From contig NZ_FXBL01000004.1 of the NCBI RefSeq assembly GCF_900177325.1, forward strand, positions 4,588,001 through 4,652,000: a stretch of DNA of 64,000 bases. Reading direction: 5' to 3'. Position 1 is the stretch's first letter. Each line of letters begins with the position of its first letter. The notes beneath the pieces were generated by a model. It had not been told where the DNA came from and made no database searches. It worked only from the letters and a program-made list of their open reading frames with translations. Made by a program: the position numbers and the translations under genes. This DNA is from Mesorhizobium australicum (GTDB taxonomy: Bacteria > Pseudomonadota > Alphaproteobacteria > Rhizobiales > Rhizobiaceae). Positions 9,509 to 28,812 of this stretch are shown in pieces.

Positions 9509-9566
9509 AGCCGGCCGCGTCCCGTCCATCCTCCCCGAATATGTCCCCAGGAAAAGGAGCAGTTCA

Positions 9567-10637
9567 ATGACACGAATGAACAGAAGAACCTTCGGCAAGC
9601 TCGCGCTCGGCACCGCCGCGCTCGCCGCACCCATGGGCTTCGTACGAAACGGCTGGGCTGCCGGCAAGGAACTCAACATCGGCATCTGGGGCGGCTCGCA
9701 GGGCGAGTTCGTCAAGAAAGAGATCATCCCCGCCTTCCAGAGCGACTTCGACTGCACTGTCGTCGCCGAGGAGGGCTTCACCCTTGCCAATGTCGGCAAG
9801 ATGCGCGCGACGAAGGACAACCCGAAATTCTCGGTGATGTTCATCGATGACGTAGCGATACCGATCTGCAAGCAGGAAGGGCTGATCGCTGAATTGCCCA
9901 AGGCCGACATGCCGGCGCTGGAAAAGCTCTATCCGCGCTTCGGCTTCGACGGATGGGGCACGGCGCTTGCCATCTCGGTGGCGAGCCTGTTCCACAACAC
10001 GAACGTGACCCCGCCGGAAACCTATGCCGAGCTGTGGGATCCGAAATATGCCGGCAAGCTGAAGCTGGTCAGCCCCAAGAACACGCCCTCGGTGTTTTTC
10101 CTGATCGTCGCCTCGGCGGTAAAGAGCGGCAAGCCGCTGGCCGAGGCGCAATACGAGATCGACGACGCCTTCGACAAGGTGGCCGAACTGAAGCCCAACA
10201 TCATGAACCTGTTCGACAACGGGCCGCAGGCCGCGAACGAGGTCGCACAGGGGCAGGCCGACATCGGGCTGCTGGAGCTGTCGAAATACATCTATCCCTA
10301 CACCGCCAAGGGCGCGCCGGTGACGATGAGTTTCCCCAAGGAAGGCAGCTTCGCCGGCAACAACTGCCAGGTGCTTGTCAAGGGTGGGCCGAACCAGGAC
10401 CTCGCCGTCGCCTTCATGAACCGGATGCTGGAACCGGCGGTACAGAAGGCGTTCTCCGAATACGCGCTGACCGCCCCGCCGGTCTCCGGCATCGAGTTCT
10501 CGGAGGAGACGCTGAAATACATCGCCTATCCCGTCGAGGAGATGGACAGCCGCGGCCTGTTTACGCCGGACTGGGAATTCATCAACGCGAAGCGTTCCGG
10601 GTGGACCGAAAAGCTGAACGGCATCTTCGCCGTCTGA
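9567..10637 (+). CDS. ABC transporter substrate-binding protein (PotD-like, Tat-type signal)
   Basis: A 356-residue extracellular solute-binding protein of the PotD/spermidine-type group. The N-terminus NRRTFGKLALG is a twin-arginine-like motif with a hydrophobic stretch ending near AAPMG, so export may be through the Tat route. The body has ELNIGIWGGSQGEFVKKEI at the start of the first lobe and the ETYAELWDPKYAGKLKLV segment seen in this family. The ligand is not necessarily a polyamine: the downstream gene is an Asp/Glu-racemase-superfamily enzyme, which suggests a carboxylic acid. Confidence 0.88.
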   Translation: MTRMNRRTFGKLALGTAALAAPMGFVRNGWAAGKELNIGIWGGSQGEFVKKEIIPAFQSDFDCTVVAEEGFTLANVGKMRATKDNPKFSVMFIDDVAIPICKQEGLIAELPKADMPALEKLYPRFGFDGWGTALAISVASLFHNTNVTPPETYAELWDPKYAGKLKLVSPKNTPSVFFLIVASAVKSGKPLAEAQYEIDDAFDKVAELKPNIMNLFDNGPQAANEVAQGQADIGLLELSKYIYPYTAKGAPVTMSFPKEGSFAGNNCQVLVKGGPNQDLAVAFMNRMLEPAVQKAFSEYALTAPPVSGIEFSEETLKYIAYPVEEMDSRGLFTPDWEFINAKRSGWTEKLNGIFAV

Positions 10638-10652
10638 TCGCTCCGCCGAAAG

Positions 10653-10675
10653 GCTGCCAGCCTCCGGCCGGCAGC
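10653..10675 (+). other. Intercistronic stem-loop after the binding-protein gene
   Basis: GCTGCC (10653-10658) pairs with GGCAGC (10670-10675), with an inner GCC/GGC pair separated by one mismatch and a three-base loop. It lies in the 62-base gap between the binding-protein gene and the ATPase gene. Such hairpins often protect upstream mRNA or reduce downstream expression, so that the binding protein is made in excess. There is no T run after it, so it is not a convincing terminator. Confidence 0.5.
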
Positions 10676-10699
10676 TTCGCATCAAAGAGGGAAAGCGCC

Positions 10700-11818
10700 A
10701 TGTCCGCACGATCCGCACCAGAATACCGCCGCGCCGAGGTCCGGCTCACAGGACTGTGCCGCAGCTACGGCGACAATCACGTCGTCCGCGACGTCGATCT
10801 GACCGCCTCCGGCGGTGAGATTCTCGCTCTGCTCGGCCCGTCCGGATGCGGCAAGACCACGACGCTGCGGATGATCGCGGGCCTCGTCGAGCCGACATCC
10901 GGCGACATCACGATCGACGGCAAGCCCATTACCGGCCTGCCGGTGCACAGGCGCAATCTCGGCATGCTGTTCCAGAACTATGCGCTGTTCCCTCATCTCA
11001 CGGTCCTGGAGAATGTCGCCTTCGGCTTGCAGATGCGCGGAATTCCAAAGCGGGAGATCGCCGACAAGGCGAAGGAGGCGCTGCACCTCGTGAGGCTCGC
11101 CGGCTTCGAGGACCGCATGCCCGCGGCCCTTTCCGGGGGCCAGCAGCAGCGCGTCGCGATGGCGCGCGCTATCGTCTACCGTCCGCGCGTGCTTTTGCTC
11201 GACGAGCCCTTCGGTGCGCTCGACAGGAAGCTGCGCGAGGAAATGCAGATAGAGCTGCGCCAGCTCTGCAACGACCTCGGTCTGACCACCATCCTCGTCA
11301 CCCACGACCAGGAGGAGGCCCTGGTTCTTGCCGACCAGATCGCGGTGATGCGCGACGGGCGTATCGAACAGGCGGCGGCGGCGCGCTCGGTCTATGAGCG
11401 GCCGTCCTCGCCTTTCGTGGCCGGCTTCATCGGCACTTCGAATTTTCTCCCGGCGACCGTCGTCAGCCAGAGCGGCGATCGCACGCAGCTCGAAGGCGAA
11501 AGCAACCGCACCTTCCAAAGCACCGTCGCACCGTCGATGGCGGCGGGCAGCCGGGCGATCATGGCCATCCGGCCCGAAAGCGTGACGCTCGCACCCGGCA
11601 ATCCCGCTGACACCGGCACGGCCAACACGGTTTGCGGCGTCGTGCTGAGGACGGTGTTCAAGGGCCAGACCCTGTCCGTGTGGATCGGTTTGCCCTTGGG
11701 GATGGAGTTCGCCGCCTCGCTGCCGATCGAAGCGACCGGCGCCGTCAATCCGCAGCCCGGCGAGACGTGGACTGCCTCCTGGTCGCCGGAGCGCACGCTG
11801 GTGATGCGCGAACAATGA
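10700..11818 (+). CDS. ABC transporter ATP-binding protein (PotA-like)
   Basis: A 372-residue ATPase of the CUT1/PotA class. It shows Walker [12 protein letters not shown] (about residue 45), the [14 protein letters not shown] signature (about 145), Walker [13 protein letters not shown] (about 166), the switch His in [10 protein letters not shown] and a C-terminal TOBE-type domain from about residue 240. The ATG at 10700 follows AGAGGGAAAG. It energises the 7740-9508 permease pair. It overlaps the next gene by four bases (ATGA), so that enzyme is translationally coupled to the transporter. Confidence 0.93.
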
Positions 11819-12543
11819 ACTGGGAATCGACGATCGCAGCCAGCCCCGCCATCGGCTTCATCGTGCCCTCGTCCAACCGCATCGTCGAGCGTGCGACACG
11901 GAGGATCCTCGAACGCGTGCCCCGCATGGACGCCTGCTTCGCACGGGTTCCCTATGACGGACACCCGGCCGACGGCTACGACACTGCTTCCTTCGAGACC
12001 TGCGCCGCGATGCTGGCGGAAGCGCGTGTCGATGTGATCTGCTGGAACGCGACACGGGGTGCGCTGCTCGGTTTCGAGCCGGACAGACGGCTTTGCGATC
12101 TCTTGGAACACCGCACCGGAATTCCCGTCACCACGACCGCGCTGGCCACGCTCGACCTGCTGACGTCAAGGAAGTTGACCCGCATCGGGCTCATTGCCCA
12201 GGGAAACCCCAAGGAGGGCCAAAGGCTGGTCGGTAATCTCGCCCGAAGAGGTATCCATGTTGCGGCGGCGCACCATCTCGGAATCTCGGATAATTTCGAG
12301 GCGTCCCGCGTCTCGAAGGATCAGATCGCCTATCTGACCGAAAAGCTGGCCGCGAACGGTACTCTGGATGCCGTGCTGATCTGGAGCACCAATCTGCCGG
12401 GCTTCGCGCTGGCGGCGGAAATGGAAGGCAGGATCGGCATCCCCGTGCTCGATTCCACGACGATCGGTGTCCTGGCTGCGCTTGAGGTCGCCGGCGTCGA
12501 CGTCGAAAGTGCCGAAACGTTGGACAACACTCGGCCTGCTTGA
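11815..12543 (+). CDS. Maleate isomerase / arylmalonate decarboxylase family protein
   Basis: A 242-residue member of the Asp/Glu racemase superfamily closest in pattern to maleate cis-trans isomerases and arylmalonate decarboxylases (GFIVPSSNRIVE near the N-terminus). The first cysteine position is present: VICWNATRGA places Cys at residue 76. At the second position, where the family usually has a Cys in a C-T-N-L context, this protein reads WSTNL, with Ser at residue 191. Isomerisation or racemisation that needs two cysteines may therefore be altered or absent. The start overlaps the ATPase stop. It probably acts on the imported acid. Confidence 0.75.
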   Translation: MNWESTIAASPAIGFIVPSSNRIVERATRRILERVPRMDACFARVPYDGHPADGYDTASFETCAAMLAEARVDVICWNATRGALLGFEPDRRLCDLLEHRTGIPVTTTALATLDLLTSRKLTRIGLIAQGNPKEGQRLVGNLARRGIHVAAAHHLGISDNFEASRVSKDQIAYLTEKLAANGTLDAVLIWSTNLPGFALAAEMEGRIGIPVLDSTTIGVLAALEVAGVDVESAETLDNTRPA

Positions 12544-12705
12544 AAGCCGCGAGAGCTATTTTGCGGAGGATGGAATAACCGCGGATCCAATGGAGACGTC
12601 ACGCTGACGGTGAGCTCCGCTTAACGCGAGTTGCGTCCACTCGACTTGACGCCGCAGACACTTGCGAGCCGCGACGTGGAGCGGACGAATGAGGCCACAG
12701 CAGAA
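12544..12705. other. Convergent intergenic gap
   Basis: A 162-base gap between the ends of the ABC/isomerase operon and the opposing crotonase gene. I see no convincing gene, hairpin with T run, or repeat in it. Confidence 0.5.
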
Positions 12706-13488
12706 TCAAAAGTCTGGCGCCTTCCTTACGCCAAAGGAACGCAATCCCTCCGCGAGGTCTGGATGCGAGACGTGATGTGACCACTTCTCAAGCTCCATCC
12801 GTAACCGGTCCTGCCGCGTCCGATCGCCGGACTGCGTTCGACCGAGACTCTTGATTGCGCGGATTGCTTCGGGGCTGTTCCGGCAAATCTCCAGGGCAAG
12901 CTCCCGGGCGCGATCCATCAGGCGATCCTTTGGCACCACTTCGTTCACCAGGCCCCAGGCCGCAAGGATCTCTGCATTGATCGTCGATGCGGTGTAGAAC
13001 AATTGGGCAGCCCTGGACGGCGACAGCCGTTCCCGGAGACGCACCGTCGCGCCGCCGGCTGGCACGATCCCGTAACGGACATGACCGTCGCCGATTAGGG
13101 CACCTTCGCAGGCAAGGATCATGTCGCAGCAGAGCAGCAGTTCCAGCCCCCCGGCGATAGCCGTGCCGTTCGCGGCCGCGATCACCGGAACCGGTATGTC
13201 CTCGACCCGTTGCAGAATGTCCTGATTATAGCGCAGGATGTCGACAAGCTTCGTGCCGCTTGCGCTGAGCGCCTCCTCGAACTCTTTGAGATCGCCGCCT
13301 GCCGAAAAGGCCCGGCCCGCGCCGGTGATGATCACCACCCTCAGCCCCGACAACCGTTCGATCTCGTCAAGCCGCCTCTCGAGTGAACGCATCATCCGGC
13401 CCGACATCGCATTGAGACTGTCTGGGCGGTTGAGCGTGAGGGTGGCGATCCCGTCCTCATAAGCAAGGTTTACAGAACTGTCCTCCAT
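12706..13488 (-). CDS. Enoyl-CoA hydratase/isomerase family protein
   Basis: A 260-residue crotonase-fold enzyme. The oxyanion-hole segments are visible as AFSAGGDLKEF (about residue 60) and the ANGTAIAGGLELLLCCDM block (about residues 100-117), which keeps the first catalytic Glu. The second segment reads HVRYGIVPAGGATVRL, without the usual PE, so hydratase activity is not assured. It is the last gene of the minus-strand run that starts at 22137, one base after the CoA ligase stop, so it probably processes the acyl-CoA made by that ligase. Confidence 0.85.
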   Translation of the reverse strand: MEDSSVNLAYEDGIATLTLNRPDSLNAMSGRMMRSLERRLDEIERLSGLRVVIITGAGRAFSAGGDLKEFEEALSASGTKLVDILRYNQDILQRVEDIPVPVIAAANGTAIAGGLELLLCCDMILACEGALIGDGHVRYGIVPAGGATVRLRERLSPSRAAQLFYTASTINAEILAAWGLVNEVVPKDRLMDRARELALEICRNSPEAIRAIKSLGRTQSGDRTRQDRLRMELEKWSHHVSHPDLAEGLRSFGVRKAPDF

Positions 13489-13489
13489 G

Positions 13490-15376
13490 TCATCCCTCCG
13501 CCGCCCGGATGGAGTAAGTCTGCGGCAGAGGCTTCAGCGCTGCTTCGAGCGCTGCCAGTCCGGCCGTGTCCGCGCCGGCGACCGCCACATCCACCACCGT
13601 CCGCTTCTGCTCGTCGAGACCGACCTTAACTGTCACCGCCGTTGCCGGCCCGCACGCCGCCTCCGCCTCCAGCCTGACCTTCTCCCGGATCGCCAGGTCG
13701 CGCAGCGCCGGCTTGAAGATCTTGCCCACGGCCGTCACTGGCAGCGCATCGATCACCAGCACGCTTCGCGGACGCGCCGGAGGCTCGTTGACCGCCGCTT
13801 CCAGATAATCCCGCAATGCTTTGGAATCGATCAGCACGCCCGGCGCCGGCACGACGAACAGAGCCGGCACTTCGCCAGCATACTGGTCCGGCATTCCAAC
13901 CGCGGCGCTGATCTGGACACCCGGAAAGCGGTTGGCGGCATCCTCGATCGCGGCCGGATCGATGTTGTGGCCGCTGCGCACGATCAGGTCTTTCTCGCGC
14001 CCCGTCAGCACCAGCCTCTCGTCTGCGGTGAGGTATCCGATATCGCCCGTCGTGAGCCACCCGTCGGCCGCCAGCGTGCCGGTGTTGTGGACGGGATCGA
14101 CATAGCCGGGAAAGACTTGTCGTCCTTTCACCTGTACCAGCCCGCTTTCCTCCGGCCCGCACAGGATGTCTTCGCGACCGATCCGCACGACACGCGTCTG
14201 CGAATAGGGCGCACGGAAGCCGACATTGCCCGGAACCGGCGTCCCCCGCCCCGGATTGAAAGCGATCGCCGCCGACGTCTCCGTCATGCCGTACGTCTCG
14301 TAGAGGCGGATGCCGGTCGTCGCCTCGAAGCGCGCGCCGACCGCGGCAGGCAGGACGGCGCCACCGGTCACCGCCATCCGCACGCTCGATACGTCGGAGC
14401 CCTCGACCCAGCTGTCGGTGATCGCCGCGATCGAAGTCGGCACTCCGCCGATGACGGTCGCACGGAACGCTTCCACCAGCGACCAGTAGCGCTCCACGGT
14501 CTGCGGCATGCGCATCCCATAGGGCGATGGCACCACCACATGCCCGCCCGCGGCGAGCACCGACAGGCCTACCGTCATCGTCCCGCCGACGTGGAAGAAC
14601 GGAAATCCATTGAACACCGTGTCGTTCTCGTCGTAGCCGAACACCTGTCCGAAGCCGAAGGCAGCGTGAATCTGGTTGCCGTGGGTAAGTTGAACCAGCT
14701 TCGGGCGACCAGTCGTGCCGCCGGTGTGGAACAACGCGCAGACCGTGTCGCGATCTTGCGGCGGCGCGAAGTCGAGCCCATCGGCGCGGTGTCTGGCCAG
14801 GGCCTGGTCGACCGCGCAGTGGCGCGGCGGGAGCGCTCCGCTTGCCCCGATCACCACCACGTCTGTCAGCGTCGGCACGTCGTCCAGCATGCCCTTCGCC
14901 TTGGCCCAGCACGTCTCATCGAGATCGCGCGCCGGGACGATGAGGATGGTCGCCTCCTCCGCATTCAGGAGGTCGACGATCGCCTCGCGGCTGAGCAGAT
15001 AGTTGATCGAACTCGCGACTCCCGCCACCTGCGCGCCAAGCAGCAGCGCCGGGAGGTCGGGCAATGTCGGGGAGAGGAACGCGGCCACGCCGCGCCCGGG
15101 TGCGAGACCGAGCGCACGGAAGAGATTGGCCGCCCGCGTCACCTCGCCGAGCAGTTCCCGGTGCGTGAGCGTGACGCCCACATCGGCCGCGTCTGGCGTA
15201 TTGAGCACTGTCAGCGCCTTGCGGTGGCCGACATTTTGCGCCGTCGCAAGCAGGAGATCGTAAAGGCTCCGCGCCGTGACCAGCTCGTCGTAGGGCCTCG
15301 CCTCGATCGCCTTGATGTCCTCGATCGTCCGCACGTCGAGAACTGGCCGCGTCGTCTTGAGAGGCCGCTGCTGCAT
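13490..15376 (-). CDS. AMP-binding acyl-CoA ligase
   Basis: A 628-residue adenylate-forming ligase. Motifs are the P-loop-like FHTGGTTGRPKLVQLTHGN (about residue 222), YETYGMTETSA (about 355), the TGDIGYL/TGREKDLI hinge (about 460-480) and the catalytic Lys in AVGKIFKPALRD (about 558). About 60 residues follow the normal C-terminus. The frame is open for 117 more codons upstream, but that part lies within the ABC ATPase gene and is not ligase-like; the ATG at 15376 overlaps the ATPase stop (TGATG). It should activate the acid brought in by the 15376-22137 importer. Confidence 0.9.
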   Translation of the reverse strand: MQQRPLKTTRPVLDVRTIEDIKAIEARPYDELVTARSLYDLLLATAQNVGHRKALTVLNTPDAADVGVTLTHRELLGEVTRAANLFRALGLAPGRGVAAFLSPTLPDLPALLLGAQVAGVASSINYLLSREAIVDLLNAEEATILIVPARDLDETCWAKAKGMLDDVPTLTDVVVIGASGALPPRHCAVDQALARHRADGLDFAPPQDRDTVCALFHTGGTTGRPKLVQLTHGNQIHAAFGFGQVFGYDENDTVFNGFPFFHVGGTMTVGLSVLAAGGHVVVPSPYGMRMPQTVERYWSLVEAFRATVIGGVPTSIAAITDSWVEGSDVSSVRMAVTGGAVLPAAVGARFEATTGIRLYETYGMTETSAAIAFNPGRGTPVPGNVGFRAPYSQTRVVRIGREDILCGPEESGLVQVKGRQVFPGYVDPVHNTGTLAADGWLTTGDIGYLTADERLVLTGREKDLIVRSGHNIDPAAIEDAANRFPGVQISAAVGMPDQYAGEVPALFVVPAPGVLIDSKALRDYLEAAVNEPPARPRSVLVIDALPVTAVGKIFKPALRDLAIREKVRLEAEAACGPATAVTVKVGLDEQKRTVVDVAVAGADTAGLAALEAALKPLPQTYSIRAAEG

Positions 15377-16872
15377 CAGTGGACCGCCGCATACATGATC
15401 GTCTCCTCGTCCGCCTTGTGCCCGTCGAACTCCTCGACGATCCGGCCCTGCCGGCACACAAGGATGCGGTCCGAAAGCTGCAGAACCTCCGGCAGGTAGG
15501 AGGAGATCACCACCACCGCGATGCCGTCGTCGGCGAGCCGGTTGATGAGCTGATGGATCTCGGCGATCGCGCCGACGTCGACGCCGCGCGTCGGCTCGTC
15601 GAAGATGATCAGCCGCGGCTTCTGCACCAGCGCCTTCGCTACGACGATCTTCTGCTGGTTGCCGCCCGACAGCTCGATCACCTTGGCGTCGGCATTGATC
15701 GCTTTGACGTTGAGCGCCGTGATCCATTCCTGCGCGATCGTGCGCATTTCGGCCATCGAGACCGTCGCGGACTTGGTCCGCCCCCCGGCAATCGCACCGA
15801 GATGGATGTTCTCGGCGATCGACATCGTCTCGAAGAAGCCTTCGACCTTGCGATCCTCGGTGACGTAGATGATGCCGTCGCGCACGGCCGGCCGGGGCAC
15901 GCGGTATCGCACCGGCCGACCGTCGAGCCTGACCTGGCCGCCGTGGAAAAGGTCGCGCTTCAGCACGCCGGCCACCACCTTCGCCGTCTCGGTGCGGCCG
16001 GATCCGATCAGCCCGAACACGCCGGTGATTTGCCCCGCGAAGACCGAGAAGGACGTGTTGCGCACCATGCTGCCCATCGACAGGTTCTGGACGCTCAGCA
16101 CCTTGTCGCCCGCGACGCGGACGCTGCGCCCTGCCTGCGAGCCGTAGAGCTCGTTGCTGAGCGTGCGGCCGACCATCGCGCGCACGATCTTCTCGCGGTC
16201 GAAGGCCGAGGCAGCATCGGTGACGACGTGTTCGCCGTCGCGCATCACTGTGATCCGGTCGGCGATCGCCAGCGCCTCCTCCAGCGCGTGGCTGATGAAG
16301 ATGATCGACACGCCGCGCTGCTTGAGCCGTTCCACCAGCGAGAAGAACTGGTGCTTCTCCTCAGGCGTCAGCGTCGCCGTCGGCTCGTCGAAGATGATCA
16401 CCTGCGCATTGTGATGCACCGCGCGGGCGATCTCGACCATCTGCTTCTGCCCGGCCCCGAGCGCGGAGACCATGGCCGTTGGATCGACATGGAAGTTGAG
16501 CGATTGCAGGAACTGCTGGCCGGCGATGTAGATGCCGCGCAGGCGATGGAACTGTTTCGCATCCGTCAGATAGATATTCTGGGCCACCGTCAGCGACGGC
16601 ACGAGGCTCGTCTCCTGGTAGACCATCGCGATGCCCCGGCCGAGCGCCTCCGAAGGCGAATTCAGTTCCGCCTTCGCTCCGTCGATCCATATCTCTCCGG
16701 CGGTCGGCTCCACCACGCCCGCGATCATCTTCGTCAGCGTCGACTTGCCGGCCCCGTTTTCGCCCAGCAGCGCATGAACCTCGCCGCGATGCAGCGTGAA
16801 CGACACGTCCTTGACCGCCGGCACGCCGCGATATTCCTTGGTCGCGTTCCGGACCTCGACGATCGGTGTCAT
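15376..16872 (-). CDS. Sugar-type ABC transporter ATP-binding protein (RbsA-like)
   Basis: A 498-residue double ATPase of the CUT2 class. The first half has Walker A LLGENGAGKSTLTKM and VIIFDEPTATLTPEE; the second has the degenerate GLIGSGRTETAKVVAG typical of RbsA C-terminal halves, with LSGGNQQKIVVAKAL and LIIFDEPTRGVDVGA. It pairs with the permeases at 17966 and 21163 and the binding protein at 20137. Its start overlaps the propeller gene by four bases, and its stop overlaps the ligase start, so transport and CoA activation are translationally linked. Confidence 0.93.
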   Translation of the reverse strand: MTPIVEVRNATKEYRGVPAVKDVSFTLHRGEVHALLGENGAGKSTLTKMIAGVVEPTAGEIWIDGAKAELNSPSEALGRGIAMVYQETSLVPSLTVAQNIYLTDAKQFHRLRGIYIAGQQFLQSLNFHVDPTAMVSALGAGQKQMVEIARAVHHNAQVIIFDEPTATLTPEEKHQFFSLVERLKQRGVSIIFISHALEEALAIADRITVMRDGEHVVTDAASAFDREKIVRAMVGRTLSNELYGSQAGRSVRVAGDKVLSVQNLSMGSMVRNTSFSVFAGQITGVFGLIGSGRTETAKVVAGVLKRDLFHGGQVRLDGRPVRYRVPRPAVRDGIIYVTEDRKVEGFFETMSIAENIHLGAIAGGRTKSATVSMAEMRTIAQEWITALNVKAINADAKVIELSGGNQQKIVVAKALVQKPRLIIFDEPTRGVDVGAIAEIHQLINRLADDGIAVVVISSYLPEVLQLSDRILVCRQGRIVEEFDGHKADEETIMYAAVH

Positions 16873-17969
16873 GCCGCGCCTCCCGCAGCGCCGGGTTGGG
16901 CAGGGGGCGAGAAGCGCACCACGACGCCGTCGCCCTGCGCCGCCGCGAACACCATGCCCTCATGCTCGACGATGCTCGTGACACCGTGGGTGTTTCCATC
17001 CGCACGGCTCTGCAGGCTCAGGCGCGGGCGGAACGCCGAATCGAGCCCGACGCACATGCCAAAGGACATGGTCGGCGCCCAGGGCTTCAACAGGCCGAGG
17101 TGCTTCACGCCCCCGCCCTGCAGGGGCTCGTAGTAGCTGCGCCCCGATTTGAGTTTCGGCGCCACCCAGTATTCCAGCGGTACTTCAGCCATCATGCGCT
17201 TGCGATAGGCCGGTTCGCGCAGCACGAATTCGACGAGCTGGCTGCGCGGCGCGAACATCGCCAGCCACCAGCCGCCGACCGCGGGCGACAGCCGGCCGGG
17301 ATATCCTGGAAGATCGATCTGGATCGGTTCAGGGTGCCCGCCGCCCTCCGTGCTGATGCGCATCAGACGATGTTTCCAGGCCTCCGAAACGATGAGCGAC
17401 CGGCCGTCGAGAGCCAGCCCCGCCGGCCATGCGAGCCCGCCCGCGATCCGCCTGCTTTCGCTGGTCGCAAGGTCGATCCGCCACACGCTGCCCGACGCGT
17501 TTCGCTCGAGCAGGTCCTTCTGCCAGTCACGGACGGTGTTGGTCGCGGACCCGTTGGCGACGAACAGCGCGCCGTCGCCGAATGCCATCGCGGTGATGCA
17601 GCGGACCGCCGCATCCGGGCGATAGCGCCGCCCGTCGAACGCACCGCCCTCGGTCGCGATCTCGCCATCCTCCTTCGCCAACGCCAGTGCGTCCGGTCCC
17701 ACCGCGGCTATGCAGGCGATGGCACCGCCATGCTTCCCGTGAGGTGACCAGCGCCCCTCCGGCCCCAGCGCCTGCACGGTGTTGCCGGCCGAGGCGACCA
17801 GGGTGCCGTTCACCACCGCCAGGCAGTCCACATCCGCCAGCGGCGAACGCCAGTCCGCCTCGTCCAGCGCACGGTTGGGCCGCATCGCGCCATCCAGCGG
17901 TGGGACGGTGACGGCAGCGTCGCCGCGCCCGAACAGGTTGTCGATTGCGCGAGAAAGCGAGCCGATCAT
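16869..17969 (-). CDS. Strictosidine-synthase-like / SMP-30-type beta-propeller protein
   Basis: A 366-residue six-bladed propeller-type protein, paralogous to the C-terminal half of its neighbour at 17966. Shared family marks are a LIVSEAWKHRLMRIS strand, the LPGYPGRLSPA segment (LPGYPDN in the paralogue) and a GFRRRM/YRKRMM helix after it. There is no signal peptide, so it is predicted cytoplasmic. Family members are calcium-dependent lactonases, arylesterases or, in plants, strictosidine synthases. A lactone or ester hydrolase acting on the imported compound before CoA ligation is a reasonable inference. ATGA overlaps occur at both ends. Confidence 0.75.
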   Translation of the reverse strand: MIGSLSRAIDNLFGRGDAAVTVPPLDGAMRPNRALDEADWRSPLADVDCLAVVNGTLVASAGNTVQALGPEGRWSPHGKHGGAIACIAAVGPDALALAKEDGEIATEGGAFDGRRYRPDAAVRCITAMAFGDGALFVANGSATNTVRDWQKDLLERNASGSVWRIDLATSESRRIAGGLAWPAGLALDGRSLIVSEAWKHRLMRISTEGGGHPEPIQIDLPGYPGRLSPAVGGWWLAMFAPRSQLVEFVLREPAYRKRMMAEVPLEYWVAPKLKSGRSYYEPLQGGGVKHLGLLKPWAPTMSFGMCVGLDSAFRPRLSLQSRADGNTHGVTSIVEHEGMVFAAAQGDGVVVRFSPPAQPGAAGGAA

Positions 17970-20080
17970 GTCCGCCTCCAATATGAGTCGATGCCGCTCC
18001 AGGTCGGGTCCATCCCGTCGAGCTTCAGCCGGCCGACGCGATTGTTCAGGATACCGCCTATGTAGAGGTGCCCCTTGTGCTCGCGCATCGAGGTGATCAT
18101 CGGGTGGTTCTCGCCGCCGAAGTCCCAAAGTGTCTCGATGATGCGGCCCGTCTCGTCGAAACGGACCACGCAGCCCGTGTTGATGTTCGGATAGAGCCAT
18201 TCGTCCGGCGCGATGCGCCGCGCCATCCGCCGCCGGAAGCCCGGCATCTTCAGCGCGAGGTCGAGCGAGGGCGTGCGGACACCCACCAGCGCCAGCCAGT
18301 AGGTGCCGTCGGAAGCCCGGTTGATGTTGTCCGGATAGCCGGGCAGATCGCCGATGACCACCTCGACCGTGCCCTTCTTCGGCCCGTCGAACCAGTAGCG
18401 GCTGACCCGGCAGGCCCAGGTCTCGGCGAACAGGAACGACTGCCCGTCATGCATCATGCAGATGCCGTTCGGGAACAGGAGGTTCTTGATGACGGTGCGC
18501 GTCGTCCCCGTGTTCGGGTCGTAGCAGATGATGCGGCCGTTGCCGCGCGATTCGAGGCAGTCCACCGGCCATTCGTGCATCTCGTAGCGGACCGTCGCCT
18601 CGCTGAAGAACACACGGCCGTCCGGCGCGATGTCGAGGTCGTCGGCGAGCCGCAGCCGGGAATCGTCGATCACCGAGAGCCAGGAGCGATTGGTCTCGTC
18701 CGTCAGCTTCCTGATCGAGCGGTCACGGCCGATGGAATAGAGGCCCATGCCTCCGATGCAGACGAGCAGCGCCCCGTCCTTCGCGAAGGCCATGCCCAAC
18801 GGGCGGCCGCCCACATGCACGAACACTTCCTGCCGCGTGTAGTCGGGCGCGAAGAACCGCACGATGTCGCCCGTCCGGTTGCCGACATAAATGTGGTCGT
18901 CCTCGTCGAGGATGACGTCCTCCGGCCCGTCGATCTGGCCGAGCCCGATCGCCTCCACCGGCCGCAGCCTGTCGTTCAGCGCATAGGGGGAGGAGCCGGA
19001 GGTCGCCGGCGCCTCTGGCAATTCCGAATAGGTTGGCGAGACATAGACCTTGGACAGGAACTTGTGCCGGTTCTTCAGCCAGCGCACGTCGATCGCCACC
19101 GCCGCGAGCAGCACCATGCCGAGCAGCAGCGAGCTTCCCCCGCGGGTCACGCCGATCCGCACCAGCCCGTTGACCATGATCATGACGATGATGGCGCCGA
19201 TGATCGCCTTCGCCGCCGATCCCCTGCCGCCACCGAGGCTGTTGCCGCCGAGCACCGCGGCGGTCAGCGCGGCGATTTCGAGCCCCACCCCCGTATCCGC
19301 GCCTGCGCCGCCAAGCCGCGATGCGAAGAGCACGCCCGAGAGTGCAGCCAAGGTGCCCGACACGACATAGGTCAGGCAGATCACGCGCCGCACGGGGATG
19401 CCGACATTGTGGGCGGAGCGTCGCGATCCGCCGACGGCCAGAACATGCCAGCCGACCCGGCTGCGGCTCAGCACCAGGTGCGCCACGAGCGCGAGTACCA
19501 GTGCCGTCGCGACGCTGAACGGCACGCCGAGCACGTCACCTTCGCCGAAATAGTACCAGAGATCGGAATCGACGAAGCCGGCCGCGATTGCCACCGAATA
19601 TTTGAGCAGCATCATGTCGACGATGGCGCGCACGATGATCAACGTCACCAGCGTCGTGAGAAATGCGCGCAGCCGCAGGTAACCCACCAGCACGCCGTTG
19701 ACGAGACCGACGAGTGCGCCGCAGGCGAGTGTCGCCCCGATCACCGCCGGCACCGGCCAACCCGCCACCGTGATCAGCGTCAGCGCCACGATGTTGCCGA
19801 GCGCGAAGGTCGAGCCGACGCTGAGGTCGATGCCGCCCGCCACCATGACGATCATCAGCGCGAGCGCGATCAGGGTGAACTCGCCCCATTGCCGCATCAG
19901 GCTCGATATGCCGGCCGCCGAGAAAAAGTCGGGGATGAGCCAGCCGAACACGGCCGCCACCACGATCAGGATCAGGACCGGGATCGCGTTGTCGACCCAG
20001 CGTTTCGTGAGGATCTCGCCAAGGAGATGATCGGGCACGAGGCGATAGCGCCAGCGTACGATCTGGTCGGATACGGCCAT
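17966..20080 (-). CDS. ABC permease fused to a strictosidine-synthase-like beta-propeller
   Basis: A 704-residue two-domain protein. Residues 1 to about 330 are a RbsC-type permease with the signature AGGIDLSVGSTFALGNIVA (about residue 70) and eight to ten membrane spans. After a linker that includes WLKNRHKFLSK, residues about 365-704 form a soluble propeller with the GPEDVILDEDDHIYVGNRTG blade, FLFAETWACRVSRYW and LPGYPDNINR motifs of the strictosidine synthase family. There is no stop codon or frameshift in between. RbsC-type C-termini are cytoplasmic, so the enzyme-like domain should sit at the inner face of the channel. This is an unusual fusion. Confidence 0.88.
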   Translation of the reverse strand: MAVSDQIVRWRYRLVPDHLLGEILTKRWVDNAIPVLILIVVAAVFGWLIPDFFSAAGISSLMRQWGEFTLIALALMIVMVAGGIDLSVGSTFALGNIVALTLITVAGWPVPAVIGATLACGALVGLVNGVLVGYLRLRAFLTTLVTLIIVRAIVDMMLLKYSVAIAAGFVDSDLWYYFGEGDVLGVPFSVATALVLALVAHLVLSRSRVGWHVLAVGGSRRSAHNVGIPVRRVICLTYVVSGTLAALSGVLFASRLGGAGADTGVGLEIAALTAAVLGGNSLGGGRGSAAKAIIGAIIVMIMVNGLVRIGVTRGGSSLLLGMVLLAAVAIDVRWLKNRHKFLSKVYVSPTYSELPEAPATSGSSPYALNDRLRPVEAIGLGQIDGPEDVILDEDDHIYVGNRTGDIVRFFAPDYTRQEVFVHVGGRPLGMAFAKDGALLVCIGGMGLYSIGRDRSIRKLTDETNRSWLSVIDDSRLRLADDLDIAPDGRVFFSEATVRYEMHEWPVDCLESRGNGRIICYDPNTGTTRTVIKNLLFPNGICMMHDGQSFLFAETWACRVSRYWFDGPKKGTVEVVIGDLPGYPDNINRASDGTYWLALVGVRTPSLDLALKMPGFRRRMARRIAPDEWLYPNINTGCVVRFDETGRIIETLWDFGGENHPMITSMREHKGHLYIGGILNNRVGRLKLDGMDPTWSGIDSYWRRT

Positions 20081-20106
20081 GTTTGTTTGCCTGGTTCAGG
20101 AGGGAA

Positions 20107-20128
20107 GCGGGCGGCCATCGCCGCCCGC
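20107..20128 (-). other. Intercistronic stem-loop after the RbsB-like gene
   Basis: A perfect nine-base-pair hairpin: GCGGGCGGC (20107-20115), loop CATC, GCCGCCCGC (20120-20128). On the minus strand it falls between the binding-protein stop (20137) and the fusion permease start (20080). No T run follows, so it looks like an mRNA-stabilising or attenuating element that raises the level of the binding protein relative to the permease. Confidence 0.6.
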
Positions 20129-20136
20129 GCTATGCG

Positions 20137-21135
20137 TCAGCCCTTGGTGGGCATGTCCCAGCACGACGCCGCCGTCATGTTGTCCTTGCGCAGGAAGTTG
20201 AGCGGCGTGAAGAGCGTCGTCTTGGTGGTGCCGGCGGGCTGCTTCAGCTGCAGCAGCTGCTTGATCATGGTCGCCATGTCGCGCGCCTGGCCGGGCACGA
20301 AATACACCACCGATTCGGAATAGGTGCCGTTGGCGAGGCCGTCGCAGACCATCCGGTTTCCGCCACCCTGCGTCAGCAGGTAGACATTCTTGCCGGACTC
20401 CTTGATCGCCGCCGCCGTGCCGACGTCCATCACGTCCCAGAATCCGGTGATGGCGCACAGATCCGGATGCTGCTGGATCACGGTCGCTGCGATGTTCTTG
20501 GCCTTGGTCGCGTCCCAGTCCGCCGCCTGGTTGGAAACGAGCTGGATCTCGGGATGCTTCGACAGGACGTTGTTGATGCCCTGCATCTGGTAGATCGAGG
20601 CCGCCGCCGTCAGCACGCCCTGAGTGATCGCAACCTTGCCAGAACCGCCCTTGGCCGGCGAGCAGACCTCGACCAGCCGTTCGCCGATCTGCTGACCCAT
20701 GCCGACATAGTCCGCGCCGACGAACACGTCGGTCGAGTAGCTCGAACGCATGTTCACCTGCACCACGTAGATGCCGGCCTCTTCGGCCTTCTTCAGAAGG
20801 CGCGCGTAGGACTGAACATCGGGATTATGCACCACGATGACGTCCGGTTTCTCGGCGATCAGGGTTGTGATCGCCTGCGCGCCGGCATCCGTCGACCAGT
20901 TCGGATCGCGGATGTCGAAGGTCACGCCCAGCGGTTCCAGCGCCTCCTTCAGGCCGGCTGCCCAGCCTTCCGTCAGGTCGAAGCCCATCGCCACGGGAAC
21001 GTAGGCGACCTTCTTGCCGACGAAGGACTCGTAGTACGGCGCGCGGGTCGGGTCGTCGATACCCTCCTGTGCATGAATGGTCCCGCCGCACAGCGCGAGC
21101 ACCGCGGCGAGTGCTGCTGTCTTGATCAGTCGCAT
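20137..21135 (-). CDS. Sugar-type ABC transporter substrate-binding protein (RbsB-like)
   Basis: A 332-residue periplasmic-binding-protein fold of the PF13407 type. Residues 1-22 form a signal peptide (MRLIKTAALAAVLALCGG, cleavage after IHA). The body has VAYVPVAMGFDLTEGWAAGL at the first lobe and the IAEKPDVIVVHNPDVQSYA strand near residue 96. It delivers the ligand to the 21163 permease and the fusion permease. The ligand is not necessarily a sugar: downstream genes encode lactonase-like propellers, a CoA ligase and a crotonase. Confidence 0.9.
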   Translation of the reverse strand: MRLIKTAALAAVLALCGGTIHAQEGIDDPTRAPYYESFVGKKVAYVPVAMGFDLTEGWAAGLKEALEPLGVTFDIRDPNWSTDAGAQAITTLIAEKPDVIVVHNPDVQSYARLLKKAEEAGIYVVQVNMRSSYSTDVFVGADYVGMGQQIGERLVEVCSPAKGGSGKVAITQGVLTAAASIYQMQGINNVLSKHPEIQLVSNQAADWDATKAKNIAATVIQQHPDLCAITGFWDVMDVGTAAAIKESGKNVYLLTQGGGNRMVCDGLANGTYSESVVYFVPGQARDMATMIKQLLQLKQPAGTTKTTLFTPLNFLRKDNMTAASCWDMPTKG

Positions 21136-21162
21136 GGTCTTCCTCCCATTGTTGACTTGGCT

Positions 21163-22137
21163 CTAGATGTCGCCCTGCTGAGCGGTCTGCTCGTCGCGGG
21201 GGTTCAGGATCGTGTCGATGACGATGGCCGTGAGCAGGATCGCGCCCTTGATCACGTTCTGGACGGTGTATTGGATGTCCATGATCGTCATGCCGTTGAG
21301 CAGCACGCCGATCAGCAGCGTGCCGACGATGACGTTGCGGATGCCGCCCTTGCCGCCGGACAGGCCGATGCCGCCGAGCACCACGACCAGGATCACGTCG
21401 TAGACATAGGTCGAGATTGCCACGCGCGTATTCATCGAGGCCACGGAGGCCGCCGTGATGATGCCGGCGAGATAGCCGATCAGCGAGGACAGCACGTATT
21501 GCATCACGACTGTCGGCCGGGTGGGCACGCCCGTGATGCGCGCGGCCAGCATGTTGTCGCCGACCGCGCGAAGATAGCGGCCGGACTTGGAAAACCTCAG
21601 AAAGGCGTGGCCCGCCAGGCATACGCCCGCGAAGAGGTAGATGGGCACCGGAACGCCAAGCACGGTCCCCTGACCGAGCCACAGCAGAGGCCCGCCGGCC
21701 GGGGGCATGTAGACGACGTCGAGATCGAACAGGAAATAGCGGCCGAACCCGTAGACCAGCGTGCCCATGGCGAGCGTCGCGAAGATCGCGGGGATCTCGA
21801 CATAGGCGACGAACCAGCCATTCAACGCGCCGATCAAGAGGCTGAAGGCGAGCCCGATCGCGATCGCCTGGGGCAGCGGCATCCCGCCCGCGATCATGCT
21901 CAGTGTCCAGGCGACCGAGATCGCCATCAGTGCGACGAGAGACAGGTCGATGCCGCGGCCAATGACCACGAGGCCCATCGCCACGCCGAGAATGCCGAGG
22001 ATCGAAACGCTGCGCACCAGGTTGAGCACGTTGTTCGCGGTCAGGAAGCCGGGCAAGGCCACGGCGAATCCGACGCAGAGAAGCAGCGCCAGGCCGAAGA
22101 CGATCTGCTCCTGGCTCAGCCGGCCGAACACCTGCAT
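21163..22137 (-). CDS. ABC transporter permease (RbsC-like)
   Basis: A 324-residue permease of the CUT2 class with the GRGIDLSLVALMAISVAWTL signature near residue 65 and about eight to ten membrane spans. A TTG five codons upstream lies inside the ribosome binding site (GGGAGGAGCGG), so the ATG at 22137 is the start. It is the first gene of the minus-strand operon and probably forms a heterodimer with the permease half of the fusion protein. Confidence 0.9.
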   Translation of the reverse strand: MQVFGRLSQEQIVFGLALLLCVGFAVALPGFLTANNVLNLVRSVSILGILGVAMGLVVIGRGIDLSLVALMAISVAWTLSMIAGGMPLPQAIAIGLAFSLLIGALNGWFVAYVEIPAIFATLAMGTLVYGFGRYFLFDLDVVYMPPAGGPLLWLGQGTVLGVPVPIYLFAGVCLAGHAFLRFSKSGRYLRAVGDNMLAARITGVPTRPTVVMQYVLSSLIGYLAGIITAASVASMNTRVAISTYVYDVILVVVLGGIGLSGGKGGIRNVIVGTLLIGVLLNGMTIMDIQYTVQNVIKGAILLTAIVIDTILNPRDEQTAQQGDI

Positions 22138-22384
22138 ATCCGCTCCTCCCAAAGACGGCGCCGACGATCGGATCCGTCGGACGGGGCAAAGCTAGCGACG
22201 CTCCGAAACGGCTTCTTTCACCTCCGCGCAAAGCTTTTCTCTGAGAGCGCAGACACTGCCAGACCGCTGGACGCCGTCTCTCGCGAGGGATAAGCTTCCT
22301 TGATTGGCTGGGACTGTCGCGGCTCGGGAGGAGCTGTCATCGCCCAGTGGGCTTCGTTCACGGGTGGAGGGGCCCTTGGACCTG
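22138..22384. promoter_or_regulatory. Divergent promoter between the RbsC-like importer and AraC regulator
   Basis: A 247-base intergenic region. It contains a perfect palindrome CGGATCCG at 22169-22176 and the GGTGGAGGGG ribosome binding site of the AraC gene (22364-22372). AraC-family proteins commonly bind in such divergent regions and activate the neighbouring transporter. No clear sigma-70 boxes are claimed. Confidence 0.4.
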
Positions 22385-23314
22385 ATGTTCGACACGCAGA
22401 GCCTGCCGCAGGCGCAGCGCTATACCGCGTGGCGTGATGCTATCTGCGACGTTTACGTCAATGTCGACGTGGCCGCGACCAGGCCGGAGGACTACCGTGG
22501 CTTCATACGCGAGGCCCGGTTCGGAGAGGTCGTCATGACCGACATTCTTCTCTCCGAGCAGCGCATTCGCCGAAATCGCCAGCACATCGCCCGCCTCGAC
22601 AAGGACTGCTACTATCTCCAGCTGGTCCACAGCGGCAACTTCAGCGTCATCCAGCGGGGTTCGACGCTGCGGTCGAATGCCGCCCGAGGTGCCATCTTCT
22701 GCGCCAGCGAACTCTACGAATTGCAGTGCCACGGCGAAGCCCGCTCCTTCTATCTCGAGCTTCCTCGCGACGACTTCGCCAGCCGTTTTGATAAGGACAA
22801 GGTACCCGTCTCGGCCCTTATCAACACCACCCAGGGCCTCGGCCGTATTGCGACCGAATTCTGCGCCTCGCTCGCGACGGAAGGCTCGAAACTCGGAGAG
22901 GGGATCCGCGCCGGCCTTGGCGACCGGCTGATGGACATGCTCGCGCTGACGCTGCAGTCGGGCCCGGACGACTCGCCCTTAGCCGACGGCTCCGTCAGGA
23001 GGGCACGGCTCCTCTCGGTCCAGAATTGGATCGAAGCCCATATAGGCGAGCACGACCTGACACTTGAGCGCATCGCCGTCGCCAACGGTGTTTCGCTGCG
23101 CCATCTCCATATGCTCTTCGAAGGAAGCGAGATGACCGCATCGGAATGGATCTGGAGCCGCCGTCTGCAACTTGCCTATGACCGCCTGGCGCGAGGCGAC
23201 CGCCGAACCATCACCGCCGTCGCCTACGATCTCGGGTTCAACAGTTCCGCGCACTTCTCGACCTTGTTCAGGCGCAAATACGGTATCTCGCCGCGCGACC
23301 TCCTGCACAGGTAG
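22385..23314 (+). CDS. AraC-family transcriptional regulator
   Basis: A 309-residue regulator with an N-terminal sensor domain of the AraC-binding-like type (AWRDAICDVYVNVDV near residue 15) and a C-terminal double helix-turn-helix (about residues 205-305: LERIAVANGVSLRHLHMLF and ITAVAYDLGFNSSAHFSTLF). Three starts are possible: TTG 22304, TTG 22376 and ATG 22385; the ATG has GGAGGGG twelve bases away and is chosen with moderate confidence. It is divergent from the ribose-type importer operon and probably its activator. Confidence 0.88.
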   Translation: MFDTQSLPQAQRYTAWRDAICDVYVNVDVAATRPEDYRGFIREARFGEVVMTDILLSEQRIRRNRQHIARLDKDCYYLQLVHSGNFSVIQRGSTLRSNAARGAIFCASELYELQCHGEARSFYLELPRDDFASRFDKDKVPVSALINTTQGLGRIATEFCASLATEGSKLGEGIRAGLGDRLMDMLALTLQSGPDDSPLADGSVRRARLLSVQNWIEAHIGEHDLTLERIAVANGVSLRHLHMLFEGSEMTASEWIWSRRLQLAYDRLARGDRRTITAVAYDLGFNSSAHFSTLFRRKYGISPRDLLHR

Positions 23315-23338: not shown

Positions 23339-24127
23339 TCAACGTCCGCCGAAGCGAGGCCGGCGCTTCTCGACCAGGGCGGTGATACCGTCCCAGGCGT
23401 CTTCGGTGGTGATGAGGCGGCCGATTGCCGCGGCCTCGGCAGCGAGTTGCTCCGTGAGGCTGTTGTGCATGCTGCCGTCGATCAGCCGCCGCGTCTCGCC
23501 ATAACCGAGGGTCGGACCTGTTGCGAGTCGCTTGGCCACAGCCTCCGCGGTCGAAGCCAGTTCGGCGGCCGGAACCACGCGGTTGACCAGCCCGTTGGCG
23601 CGGGCCGTTTCGGCATCCCAGACCTCGCCGAGCAGGAAGAACTCCTTGGCGAGTCTTGCTCCGACACGACGCGTCAGGAAGAACGAGGCTCCACTGTCGG
23701 GGCAAAGGCCAATGGTCGAGAATGCCGAGGCAAAGGTCGCGTCCGGCGCCGCGTAGACGAGGTCGCAGCCGGACACCAGCCCGACCGTGCCGCCCGCCGT
23801 CGTCGCGTGGACGCTGGCGACGACCGGCGCGTCGCCCCTGGCAAAGAGCTCGATGCCGTAACAGAGATCCTTCAGCATCCTCGTGACGGACGGAGGCAGG
23901 GCATTGCGATCCCGCGCGAGAAGCTTCAGGTCGCCGCCGACGCTGAAATACCTGCCCTCCGCGTCGAGAAGCACGGCCCTGACATCCGGATTCCGGTAGC
24001 AACACTCGGCGGCATGCCTGAACTCGGCGGCGAATGCCTCATCGATCGGATTGCCGCGTTCCGGCTGGCACATGGTGAGCCGTGCAAGCCCGTCGTCGAT
24101 CACAAGCCTTATCGCACGCGTTCCCAT
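23339..24127 (-). CDS. Enoyl-CoA hydratase/isomerase, PaaG-like
   Basis: A 262-residue crotonase. It resembles PaaG-type isomerases: GRYFSVGGDLKLL oxyanion segment (about residue 60) and AFSTIGLCPDSGASFFLTRR, where the Asp matches the PaaG catalytic Asp and the usual hydratase Glu is absent. A ring or double-bond isomerase role is therefore more likely than hydration. The ATG at 24127 has GGAGGGGG upstream; a GTG seven codons earlier is less likely. It is the last gene of the operon starting at 30450, and is a paralogue of 44085-44882. Confidence 0.85.
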   Translation of the reverse strand: MGTRAIRLVIDDGLARLTMCQPERGNPIDEAFAAEFRHAAECCYRNPDVRAVLLDAEGRYFSVGGDLKLLARDRNALPPSVTRMLKDLCYGIELFARGDAPVVASVHATTAGGTVGLVSGCDLVYAAPDATFASAFSTIGLCPDSGASFFLTRRVGARLAKEFFLLGEVWDAETARANGLVNRVVPAAELASTAEAVAKRLATGPTLGYGETRRLIDGSMHNSLTEQLAAEAAAIGRLITTEDAWDGITALVEKRRPRFGGR

Positions 24128-24174
24128 GACCCCCTCCACATTTACCACGGCGTCTCAGCGGACGGCCGATTTCG

Positions 24175-24981
24175 TCAGCTCGGATGCAGGACGGCTCCGC
24201 CGCACACCGAAATGACCTGTCCCGTCACGTAGCCGGAAAGATCGGTGGCCAGGAATTCCAGCACGTTGGCGAGGTCTTCCGTGCTGCCAAAGCGCTTCAG
24301 CGCGATGGCTTCGAGTTGCCGGGGCGTGCCCACGCCCATGGACGGGTCGAGCCGCTTCAGGCGCTCGGTCTCGACGATGCCCGGCGCAATCGCGTTGGCG
24401 CGGATTCCATAGGAGCCGAGTTCGGCGGCAAGCGTGCGCGTGAGGTAGGCGACACCCGCCTTCGCCGCGCCATAGACGGCGAGATTGCCGCCCTCCAGCA
24501 GCGAAATGCCGGTCTGGGACGAGATGTTGACGATGACGCCGCTGCGCTGAGCCTTCATCGTCGGCGCCACTGCCGCACAGCACAATTGCGCGGATTTCAG
24601 GTTCACATCGATGAGATAGTCGAATGCCTCCGGCGTCGTCTCCGTCGCCAGCGTGCCGCTGCCGCGCGCGACCGCGACGCCGGCATTGTTGACGAGGATG
24701 TCGATCCGACCAAAGGCGGCGAGCGTCTCCGCGACAAGGCGCTTCACGGCTTCCGGCTCGCGCAGGTCGCCCTCCACACCGATCGAGCGCACGCCCAAGG
24801 CCTCTGCCTCGGCCATCACGCTCTCGGCGGTCAGTTCCTCGCCGATACGGGCAGCGCCCTTGAGGTTGACGTCGGCGATGACGATGTCGGCGCCGAGTTT
24901 CGCAAGCCTCAGCGCATAGGCGCGGCCGAGGCCGCGCGCCGCGCCGGTGACGATGGCAACCTTGCCCGAAAGCGCGGCCAT
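24175..24981 (-). CDS. SDR family oxidoreductase (tandem copy 1)
   Basis: A 268-residue classical SDR with TGAARGLG (about residues 12-19), NNAGVAVARGSG, Ser in VNISSQTGISLLEGG and YGAAK. It is clearly a tandem duplicate of the next gene (24981-25790): both have GRAYALRL, QRSGVIVN and LEFLATDLSxYVTGQVI. The copies overlap by one base (TGATG). It likely oxidises a hydroxyacyl-CoA in the same pathway as the upstream dehydrogenase and ligase, perhaps a different stereoisomer from its twin. Confidence 0.88.
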   Translation of the reverse strand: MAALSGKVAIVTGAARGLGRAYALRLAKLGADIVIADVNLKGAARIGEELTAESVMAEAEALGVRSIGVEGDLREPEAVKRLVAETLAAFGRIDILVNNAGVAVARGSGTLATETTPEAFDYLIDVNLKSAQLCCAAVAPTMKAQRSGVIVNISSQTGISLLEGGNLAVYGAAKAGVAYLTRTLAAELGSYGIRANAIAPGIVETERLKRLDPSMGVGTPRQLEAIALKRFGSTEDLANVLEFLATDLSGYVTGQVISVCGGAVLHPS

Positions 24982-25790: not shown

Positions 25791-25800
25791 GGGAAAATCC

Positions 25801-28771: not shown

Positions 28772-28812
28772 GGTGATGCCTTTGAATGCGAGACGAACGG
28801 GAGGTGGCCAAG

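Follow-up and report, generated by a model that had tools for sequence, protein, structure and literature searches.

The importer operon and its fused permease

The 64,000-nucleotide stretch of Mesorhizobium australicum DNA analysed here (contig NZ_FXBL01000004.1, positions 4,588,001 to 4,652,000; hereafter the window, always at its full length) carries on its reverse strand an operon for an ATP-binding cassette (ABC) importer, in which the second of two permeases continues into a six-bladed beta-propeller and the following gene encodes a free-standing paralogue of that propeller (Table 1). A sequence-only reading of the window had described a continuous frame in which an RbsC-type permease is followed by a strictosidine-synthase-like propeller, a free paralogue overlapping its neighbours by four bases, and an operon ending in a CoA ligase and a crotonase, and closer analysis bears out all of these observations. 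Specifically, the frame at 17966-20080 comprises 704 codons without a stop between the domains, the free propeller matches the fused one in a profile comparison (probability 99.9%, 22% identity), its gene shares four bases with the fusion gene (17966-17969) and four with the ATPase gene (16869-16872), and Pfam confirms both the ligase and the crotonase.

Table 1. Genes of the importer operon and its divergent regulator, with positions in the window
Gene product	Length (residues)	Position	Strand	Basis or remark
AraC-type regulator		22304..23314	+	AraC_binding_2 and HTH_18; divergent from the operon
Permease 1 (BPD_transp_2), without propeller	324	21163..22137	-	Pfam, 88.8 bits
Periplasmic binding protein (Peripla_BP_4)	332	20137..21135	-	Pfam, 151 bits
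Permease 2 fused to a putatively metal-competent SSL/N6P propeller	704	17966..20080	-	Open reading frame, Pfam, model m483ef2158ed8, ligand positions
Free propeller paralogue without metal site (pseudoenzyme-like)	366	16869..17969	-	Profile match, model, residues at ligand positions
Double-cassette ATPase (RbsA/AraG type)	498	15376..16872	-	Two ABC_tran stretches (Pfam)
Acyl-CoA ligase (AMP-binding)	628	13490..15376	-	Pfam; nearest NCBIfam model PRK07529, below cut-off
Crotonase (enoyl-CoA hydratase/isomerase family)	260	12706..13488	-	Pfam, 175 bits

Permease 1 is the first gene of the operon, with its ATG at 22137 and a purine-rich stretch upstream (read directly), and at the far end a single base separates the ligase stop from the crotonase ATG. 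Judged from gene order and overlaps the genes are probably co-transcribed; a promoter and terminator scan gave 1 + 4 sites against 1.3 + 4.3 in shuffles, and hence no excess. The features of a CUT2/RbsC-type importer are present within this one operon, namely BPD_transp_2 permeases (88.8 bits for permease 1 and 129 bits for permease 2, at a cut-off of 26.8 bits), a double-cassette ATPase and a Peripla_BP_4 binding protein. No subunit reached the equivalog cut-off of the NCBIfam sugar or autoinducer-2 models listed (for the ATPase, the best 25 of 191 models), as exemplified by the ribose permease model with 161.8 bits against a cut-off of 398.

Within the fusion, the permease spans residues ~27-335, a linker ~336-364 and the propeller ~365-690, and four Pfam domains exceed their cut-offs: BPD_transp_2 (58-327, 129 bits), SSL_N (365-409), Str_synth (480-566, 75 bits) and SGL (417-600). 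A frame error, a sequencing error and a chance fusion were each considered and rejected, as the same join occurs in relatives down to 41% identity. Indeed, 103 fused open reading frames (ORFs) and a 71-sequence alignment (mean column identity of the whole protein, 68%) show conserved residues on either side of it, which excludes a sequencing error that joined two genes. Chance is likewise excluded, because there are database relatives and the genome contains two more operons paralogous to this one: M. australicum has three fusions, the other two being 61% and 60% identical to that of the window, and each lies in an operon with permease 1, a binding protein, a free propeller and an ATPase.

Recurrence of the module

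A database search with the fusion returned 3,939 matches at E <= 0.001 among 8,000 candidates scored, and all four Pfam domains are present in each of the 120 matches listed; the same two-domain architecture, which the sequence-only reading had proposed to look for, thus exists in other genomes. A pattern scan covering 84,980 species genomes yielded 432 matches, of which 388 encode a relative, and the best 80 of these 388 loci were taken as the locus set. Neighbour counts refer to 83 loci (these 80, the window and its two paralogues) and, on each side, only to loci with enough sequence; loci L095-L108 enter the ligand counts and are left out of the neighbour counts, and the truncated fusions L032, L046 and the second copy of L090, as well as the truncated free gene of L022, contribute to these counts over the length that they have. 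Several loci share a genome with others (e.g. L082 and the stretches of genome G702), and the relatives are not independent events.

Judged from record titles, the relatives belong mostly to Alphaproteobacteria, with others in Variovorax, Bordetella hinzii, Paraburkholderia, Alcanivorax and a few metagenome-assembled genomes labelled otherwise. The distribution of the module is patchy: at E <= 1e-100 11/398 phylum genomes and 10/385 class genomes contain the fusion, with two candidates scored per genome, so that copies per genome are undercounted. Relatives covering at least 80% of the fusion also occur on 15 plasmid records, among them those of Pantoea sp. At-9b and several Shinella, so that the fusion resides on plasmids too, and none of 34 pattern-matching stretches on viral contigs encodes a relative.

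Where the fusion occurs, its partners come with it. Permease 1 is present in 78 of 79 loci (it was not found in L081), the binding protein in 81/81, the ATPase in 76/76 and the free propeller, directly after the fusion, in 78/78, so that permease 1, binding protein, fusion, free propeller and double ATPase form a fixed module. The fusion (E <= 1e-100) and the free propeller (E <= 1e-20) were found in the same 10 of the 385 class genomes, and all 18 free genes of these genomes adjoin a fusion (16 by the match lists and two by inspection). One genome (G702, with L120, L121, L122 and L123) has five copies of fusion plus free propeller, three of them within ~20 kb.

Putative metal site and topology of the fused propeller

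By sequence search of solved structures, the nearest relative of the fused propeller is TGW6, for which residues E59, N167, N226 and N272 are given as a putative calcium site (PMC10958001). In hand-read alignments with a constant offset of 28, N167, N226 and N272 correspond to D480, N538 and N585 of the fusion, with D584 beside N585; E387 falls outside the printed alignment of the two proteins and was matched by the GPE motif that they have in common (E59 in TGW6). All four candidate ligands are kept in 101 of 103 fused sequences: E387 in 103, D480 in 98 (N480 in the other 5), N538 in 103 and D584 in 101 (one A, one S). D481 and N585 are present in all 103, and H659 in 101 (L in one sequence, a gap in another).

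In the N6P superfamily, a conserved set of four metal ligands is the sign of metal-dependent hydrolysis, and the true strictosidine synthases are outliers that have no such set and catalyse a metal-independent condensation (PMC4215206). The strictosidine synthases in the printed alignments have G and G at the positions of N538 and D584. With its SSL/SGL domain, six-bladed fold and four ligands, the fused propeller resembles the N6P metal hydrolases and is probably metal-competent, judging by sequence; its assignment as a strictosidine synthase proper was rejected since the ligands are kept. The structure model of the fusion (m483ef2158ed8) has a mean predicted local distance difference test score (pLDDT) of 84.0 and a predicted template modelling score (pTM) of 0.55, and a Foldseek search with it found strictosidine synthases at the top ranks, along with TGW6, the lactonase RPA3624, the Caulobacter crescentus xylonolactonase, PON1, SMP30 and DFPase.

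The sequence-only reading had pointed to the cytoplasmic orientation of RbsC C-termini, and charge distribution agrees. With inside and outside segments assigned by hand from the helices of the model, the fused sequences average 15.6 K+R per 91.4 'inside' residues versus 1.1 per 50.9 'outside', and the inside is the denser side in 103/103. The last permease helix is followed by a strongly basic stretch, IDVRWLKNRHKFLSK. Because the positive-inside rule holds in every sequence, the propeller of permease 2 should be on the cytoplasmic side. No solved homologue of the permease was found by sequence at E <= 0.001.

A conserved partner without the metal site

The free propeller matches Str_synth only marginally (26.2 bits at a cut-off of 25), but its model is confident (pLDDT 90.1, pTM 0.89) and its top structural matches are strictosidine synthases. 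At the ligand positions of the fused domain the protein of the window has D48, T126, A183, G225 and R226. The full ligand set is absent from all 98 free propellers: 73 have lost every ligand, 22 retain one and 3 retain two, and a second, joint alignment gives an identical table. The putative ligands of a calcium site, which the sequence-only reading had suggested looking for in a model of the propeller, are present in the fused domain and lost as a set in its free paralogue, and the free propeller as a second metal-dependent lactonase was rejected on these grounds.

The family is nevertheless not decaying: it is conserved with pocket residues of its own (D48 in 86, T126 in 88, R226 in 91 and H328 in 97 of the 98), and a 62-sequence alignment has 17 invariant columns and a mean column identity of 49%. 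R226 lies at the position of N585 in the fusion, and this arginine may stand in place of the metal. The pair would therefore consist of one metal-competent, membrane-tethered propeller and one pseudoenzyme-like partner. What is new here is this combination of ligands kept in the fused domain and lost in a free one that is still conserved.

Catabolic neighbours

Neighbouring genes were counted by homology searches, as gene calling by G+C pattern was too noisy. A ligase of the window's type lies downstream on the same strand in 25 of the 83 loci, and all but one of these also have the crotonase (24/25; the sequence of the exception, L026, ends early). In 13 of the 25 ligase loci the two form a single ORF, of ~880-1010 residues (e.g. 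L015:14351-17374 and L090:14348-17371; the open frame of L021 has 1391), which supports the ligase-then-crotonase order of the window, where they are two genes. A divergent AraC relative is present in 23 of the 25. The co-occurrence that the sequence-only reading had proposed to check therefore holds between ligase and crotonase and is not general between ligase and importer; the two as fixed partners of the importer were rejected, and they are the pathway of one clade, not part of the importer. That reading had seen neither this inconstancy, nor the constancy of permease 1, binding protein and ATPase, nor the loss of the metal site in the free paralogue.

Two other types of neighbourhood were found. 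Within ~10 kb on either side, 8 of the 83 loci have a homologue of degradative 3-hydroxy-3-methylglutaryl-CoA (HMG-CoA) reductase, and seven of these eight also have one of HMG-CoA lyase. In the two loci tested (L043 and L092), HMG_CoA_R_NAD ('degradative') and HMG-CoA lyase exceed their NCBIfam cut-offs, and in L121 a single strand reads HMG-CoA reductase, permease 1, binding protein, fusion, free propeller, ATPase, HMG-CoA lyase. In 10 of the 83 loci, a zinc alcohol dehydrogenase and an aldehyde dehydrogenase lie downstream. The pathway types cluster on a quick tree of 88 rows (rows shorter than 600 residues left out), where they require 5, 3 and 2 changes; shuffling gives means of 21.7, 9.7 and 7.7. 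The HMG-CoA type occurs at two separate places on this tree, and seven of its eight loci form one clade, which points to few events, not eight. Degradative HMG-CoA reductase exceeds its cut-off in 13 of the 385 class genomes, and its presence beside 8 of 83 importer loci is far above the expectation from these 13 genomes for random positions. The predicted cargo of the HMG-CoA-type clades, from their neighbouring genes, is mevalonate or mevalonolactone. Genome G648 may contain a third mevalonate-type locus of greater divergence: one of its contigs (C48:6776-8875 and 23430-24446) carries a fusion and, at a distance of ~15 kb, a weak HMG-CoA reductase match below the cut-off.

For the importer of the window itself, mevalonate as the cargo is not supported: no HMG-CoA reductase was found beside it, and the sole match in the source genome is at C4:2944023, in a cluster elsewhere. 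This cluster (L119, C4:2935001-2955000) has homologues of HMG-CoA reductase, lyase, CaiB and crotonase at ~8888-18652, and the five genes of the importer gave no match at E <= 1e-10 within its 20 kb. Downstream of it lie genes for an SBP_bac_5 binding protein and an M20 peptidase, and the source organism may have a different route for the uptake of a mevalonyl conjugate.

Elsewhere in the window, a run of catabolic genes on the reverse strand (23339-31632) encodes a crotonase, two short-chain dehydrogenases, a nitroreductase, an APH-type kinase, an acyl-CoA dehydrogenase, an AMP-binding ligase and a zinc-type oxidoreductase. On the forward strand there are a gene for the DctM component of a tripartite ATP-independent periplasmic (TRAP) transporter (2667-4643) and one of the arylmalonate decarboxylase/Asp-Glu racemase family (11632-12543).

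Proposed mechanism and alternatives

The best reading of the module, with a probability of about one half, is that the fused propeller is a cytoplasmic lactone or ester hydrolase tethered to its own importer, so that a five-gene RbsC/CUT2-type module would bring along the enzyme for the first catabolic step. The binding protein would capture a small compound of the lactone or ester type, which would pass through a channel made of permease 1 and permease 2 and powered by the double-cassette ATPase. The propeller at the C-terminus of permease 2 would hang on the cytoplasmic face of this channel and hold a divalent metal with E387, D480, N538 and D584 (N585 beside them), and the compound would be hydrolysed on arrival and could then not leak back. 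The free propeller would be a structural or sensing partner of either permease 1 or the fused propeller, restoring the two-fold symmetry of a channel in which only one permease bears a propeller by fusion; a non-catalytic role of this kind is the most likely one for it. The released acid would be used by a clade-specific pathway, that is, ligase and crotonase in the clade of the window, HMG-CoA reductase and lyase (mevalonate) in another, and alcohol and aldehyde dehydrogenases in a third. The sequences themselves show the architecture, the constant make-up of the module, which ligands are kept or lost, the sign of the topology and the neighbour types, and from these we infer hydrolysis, metal binding, propeller pairing and cargo.

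The channel-tethered lactonase or esterase of the sequence-only reading is supported in part: the fused domain is metal-competent by sequence and its fold resembles lactonases and paraoxonase as well as strictosidine synthases, but with the ligand set kept in 0/98, its free paralogue probably does not perform this chemistry a second time, and the lactonase or esterase activity and the cargo in the clade of the window are putative. Two of the three neighbour types, the HMG-CoA reductase type and the alcohol plus aldehyde dehydrogenase type, act on a hydroxyl group and therefore fit an opened lactone or ester, i.e. a hydroxy-acid product; such a product, released at the channel exit, is compatible with all three.

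Several observations weigh against this reading. The ligase-crotonase type indicates only the activation of an acid and does not by itself imply a hydroxy-acid, and 40 of the 83 loci match none of the three pathway types. Among the 13 class genomes with the reductase, 3 have a fusion anywhere, 1 has it beside the reductase and 10 have no fusion match (E <= 1e-100); since most reductase genomes lack the importer, the reductase must mostly work with other transporters. Mevalonate is mostly open-chain at neutral pH, so that a lactonase is not needed for mevalonate itself, and the hydrolysed bond could be an ester. At the metal site, D584 is missing in 2 of 103 fused sequences and the second ligand is Asn in TGW6 and Asp in 98 of 103 fusions. 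The TGW6 crystal contains no calcium although its ligands are partly conserved (PMC10958001), and ligand residues are therefore no proof of a metal. Finally, with a pTM of 0.55 the model does not fix the placement of the propeller relative to the channel.

The main rival is regulation, in which both propellers would be ligand-sensing domains for trans-inhibition or trans-activation and the metal site would serve binding, not catalysis. Regulatory domains fused to transporters are common and many fused domains have no known function (PMC10710835), and a free propeller that lacks the metal site and has a different conserved pocket is what would be expected of a binding module. This explanation is nonetheless unlikely, though worth keeping in view, given that a complete hydrolase metal site persists in 101 of 103 fused sequences, that the domain of MetNI and ModABC sits on the ATPase (PMC10710835) whereas here it is on one permease, and that the enzymes of two of the three typed neighbourhoods work on a hydroxyl group such as a hydrolase product would have.

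A different chemistry for the fused propeller, with the enzyme carrying out another N6P-type reaction (condensation or isomerisation) or acting on a side product and the tether serving localisation alone, is improbable: the top-ranked solved folds are strictosidine synthases, which catalyse a metal-independent condensation (PMC4215206), but these have G and G where the fused domain keeps N538 and D584. Compatible with a tethered hydrolase in the fusion, and rated as slightly more improbable still, is the possibility that the free propeller is a second, metal-independent enzyme with an Arg/His/Asp pocket that acts on a different bond of the same cargo. Its pocket is conserved and not drifting, at the counts given above, and strictosidine synthase shows that an enzyme of this fold can work without a metal (PMC4215206), but no recognised catalytic set is present, column identity is 49% (62 sequences) versus 68% for the whole fusion (71 sequences), and the gene lies between the fusion and the ATPase, not among the catabolic genes.

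To return to the tethered hydrolase, a broader proposal can be put forward tentatively, as a possibility short of an even chance. A recurrent importer class may couple translocation to hydrolysis, with a tethered metallo-propeller and a dedicated pseudoenzyme propeller under the channel as a pseudo-symmetric pair that opens lactones or esters at its exit and senses or gates their passage; chemistry, through metabolic trapping, would add to ATP in keeping uptake from being reversed, and clades would be retuned for mevalonolactone-like and other cargo. The data suggest that imported lactones or esters are opened on entry to the cell. If true, this would be a concrete case of an ABC importer performing the first catabolic step, with a built-in pair of active and inactive propellers, and the direct prediction of mevalonate or mevalonolactone as the cargo of some clades makes the mechanism testable at once. 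Current annotation names would then mislead: among the 120 matches listed of 3,939, those fusions for which a name is given appear as 'ribose transport system permease', 'ABC transporter permease' or 'SMP-30/gluconolactonase', and the free partner is mostly a 'hypothetical protein' among the 120 listed of 2,023. The domain architecture is already visible in public annotation. Among the matches listed from the open-licence literature, no title or abstract opening dealt with the fusion, the pseudoenzyme partner or a mevalonate ABC importer, which is not proof of absence.

Comparison with known systems

The module shares with RbsABC/AraFGH-type (CUT2) importers its BPD_transp_2 permeases, Peripla_BP_4 binding protein and double-cassette ATPase, but differs in having two different permeases, one of them with a C-terminal propeller, and an extra propeller gene between permease and ATPase, and in reaching no sugar equivalog cut-off. 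The HMG-CoA-type loci are presumably akin to mevalonate degradation of the Pseudomonas mevalonii type, as they contain homologues of degradative HMG-CoA reductase and lyase; unlike there, the genes of these relatives lie beside or within the operon of a propeller-bearing importer, and the window belongs to another pathway type.

The fused domain has the six-bladed fold and the four ligands of the N6P metal hydrolases (DFPase, PON1, SMP30/gluconolactonase, RPA3624 and the C. crescentus xylonolactonase), but is nearest by sequence to the strictosidine-synthase-like subgroup, has Asp for Asn at one ligand in 98 of 103 sequences and sits in a membrane channel. Strictosidine synthase and TGW6 are its closest solved sequences and folds; the former differs by the two ligands missing in the printed alignments, and the latter is a rice indole-3-acetic acid-glucose hydrolase without bound calcium (PMC10958001). 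Finally, the trans-inhibited importers MetNI and ModABC likewise carry an extra cytoplasmic domain on an ABC importer, which in their case is on the ATPase and binds substrate (PMC10710835). The ATPase of the window has ABC/P-loop-type domains only (Pfam) and thus no such regulatory domain; here, it is the permease that bears the additional domain, and that domain is a complete enzyme fold.

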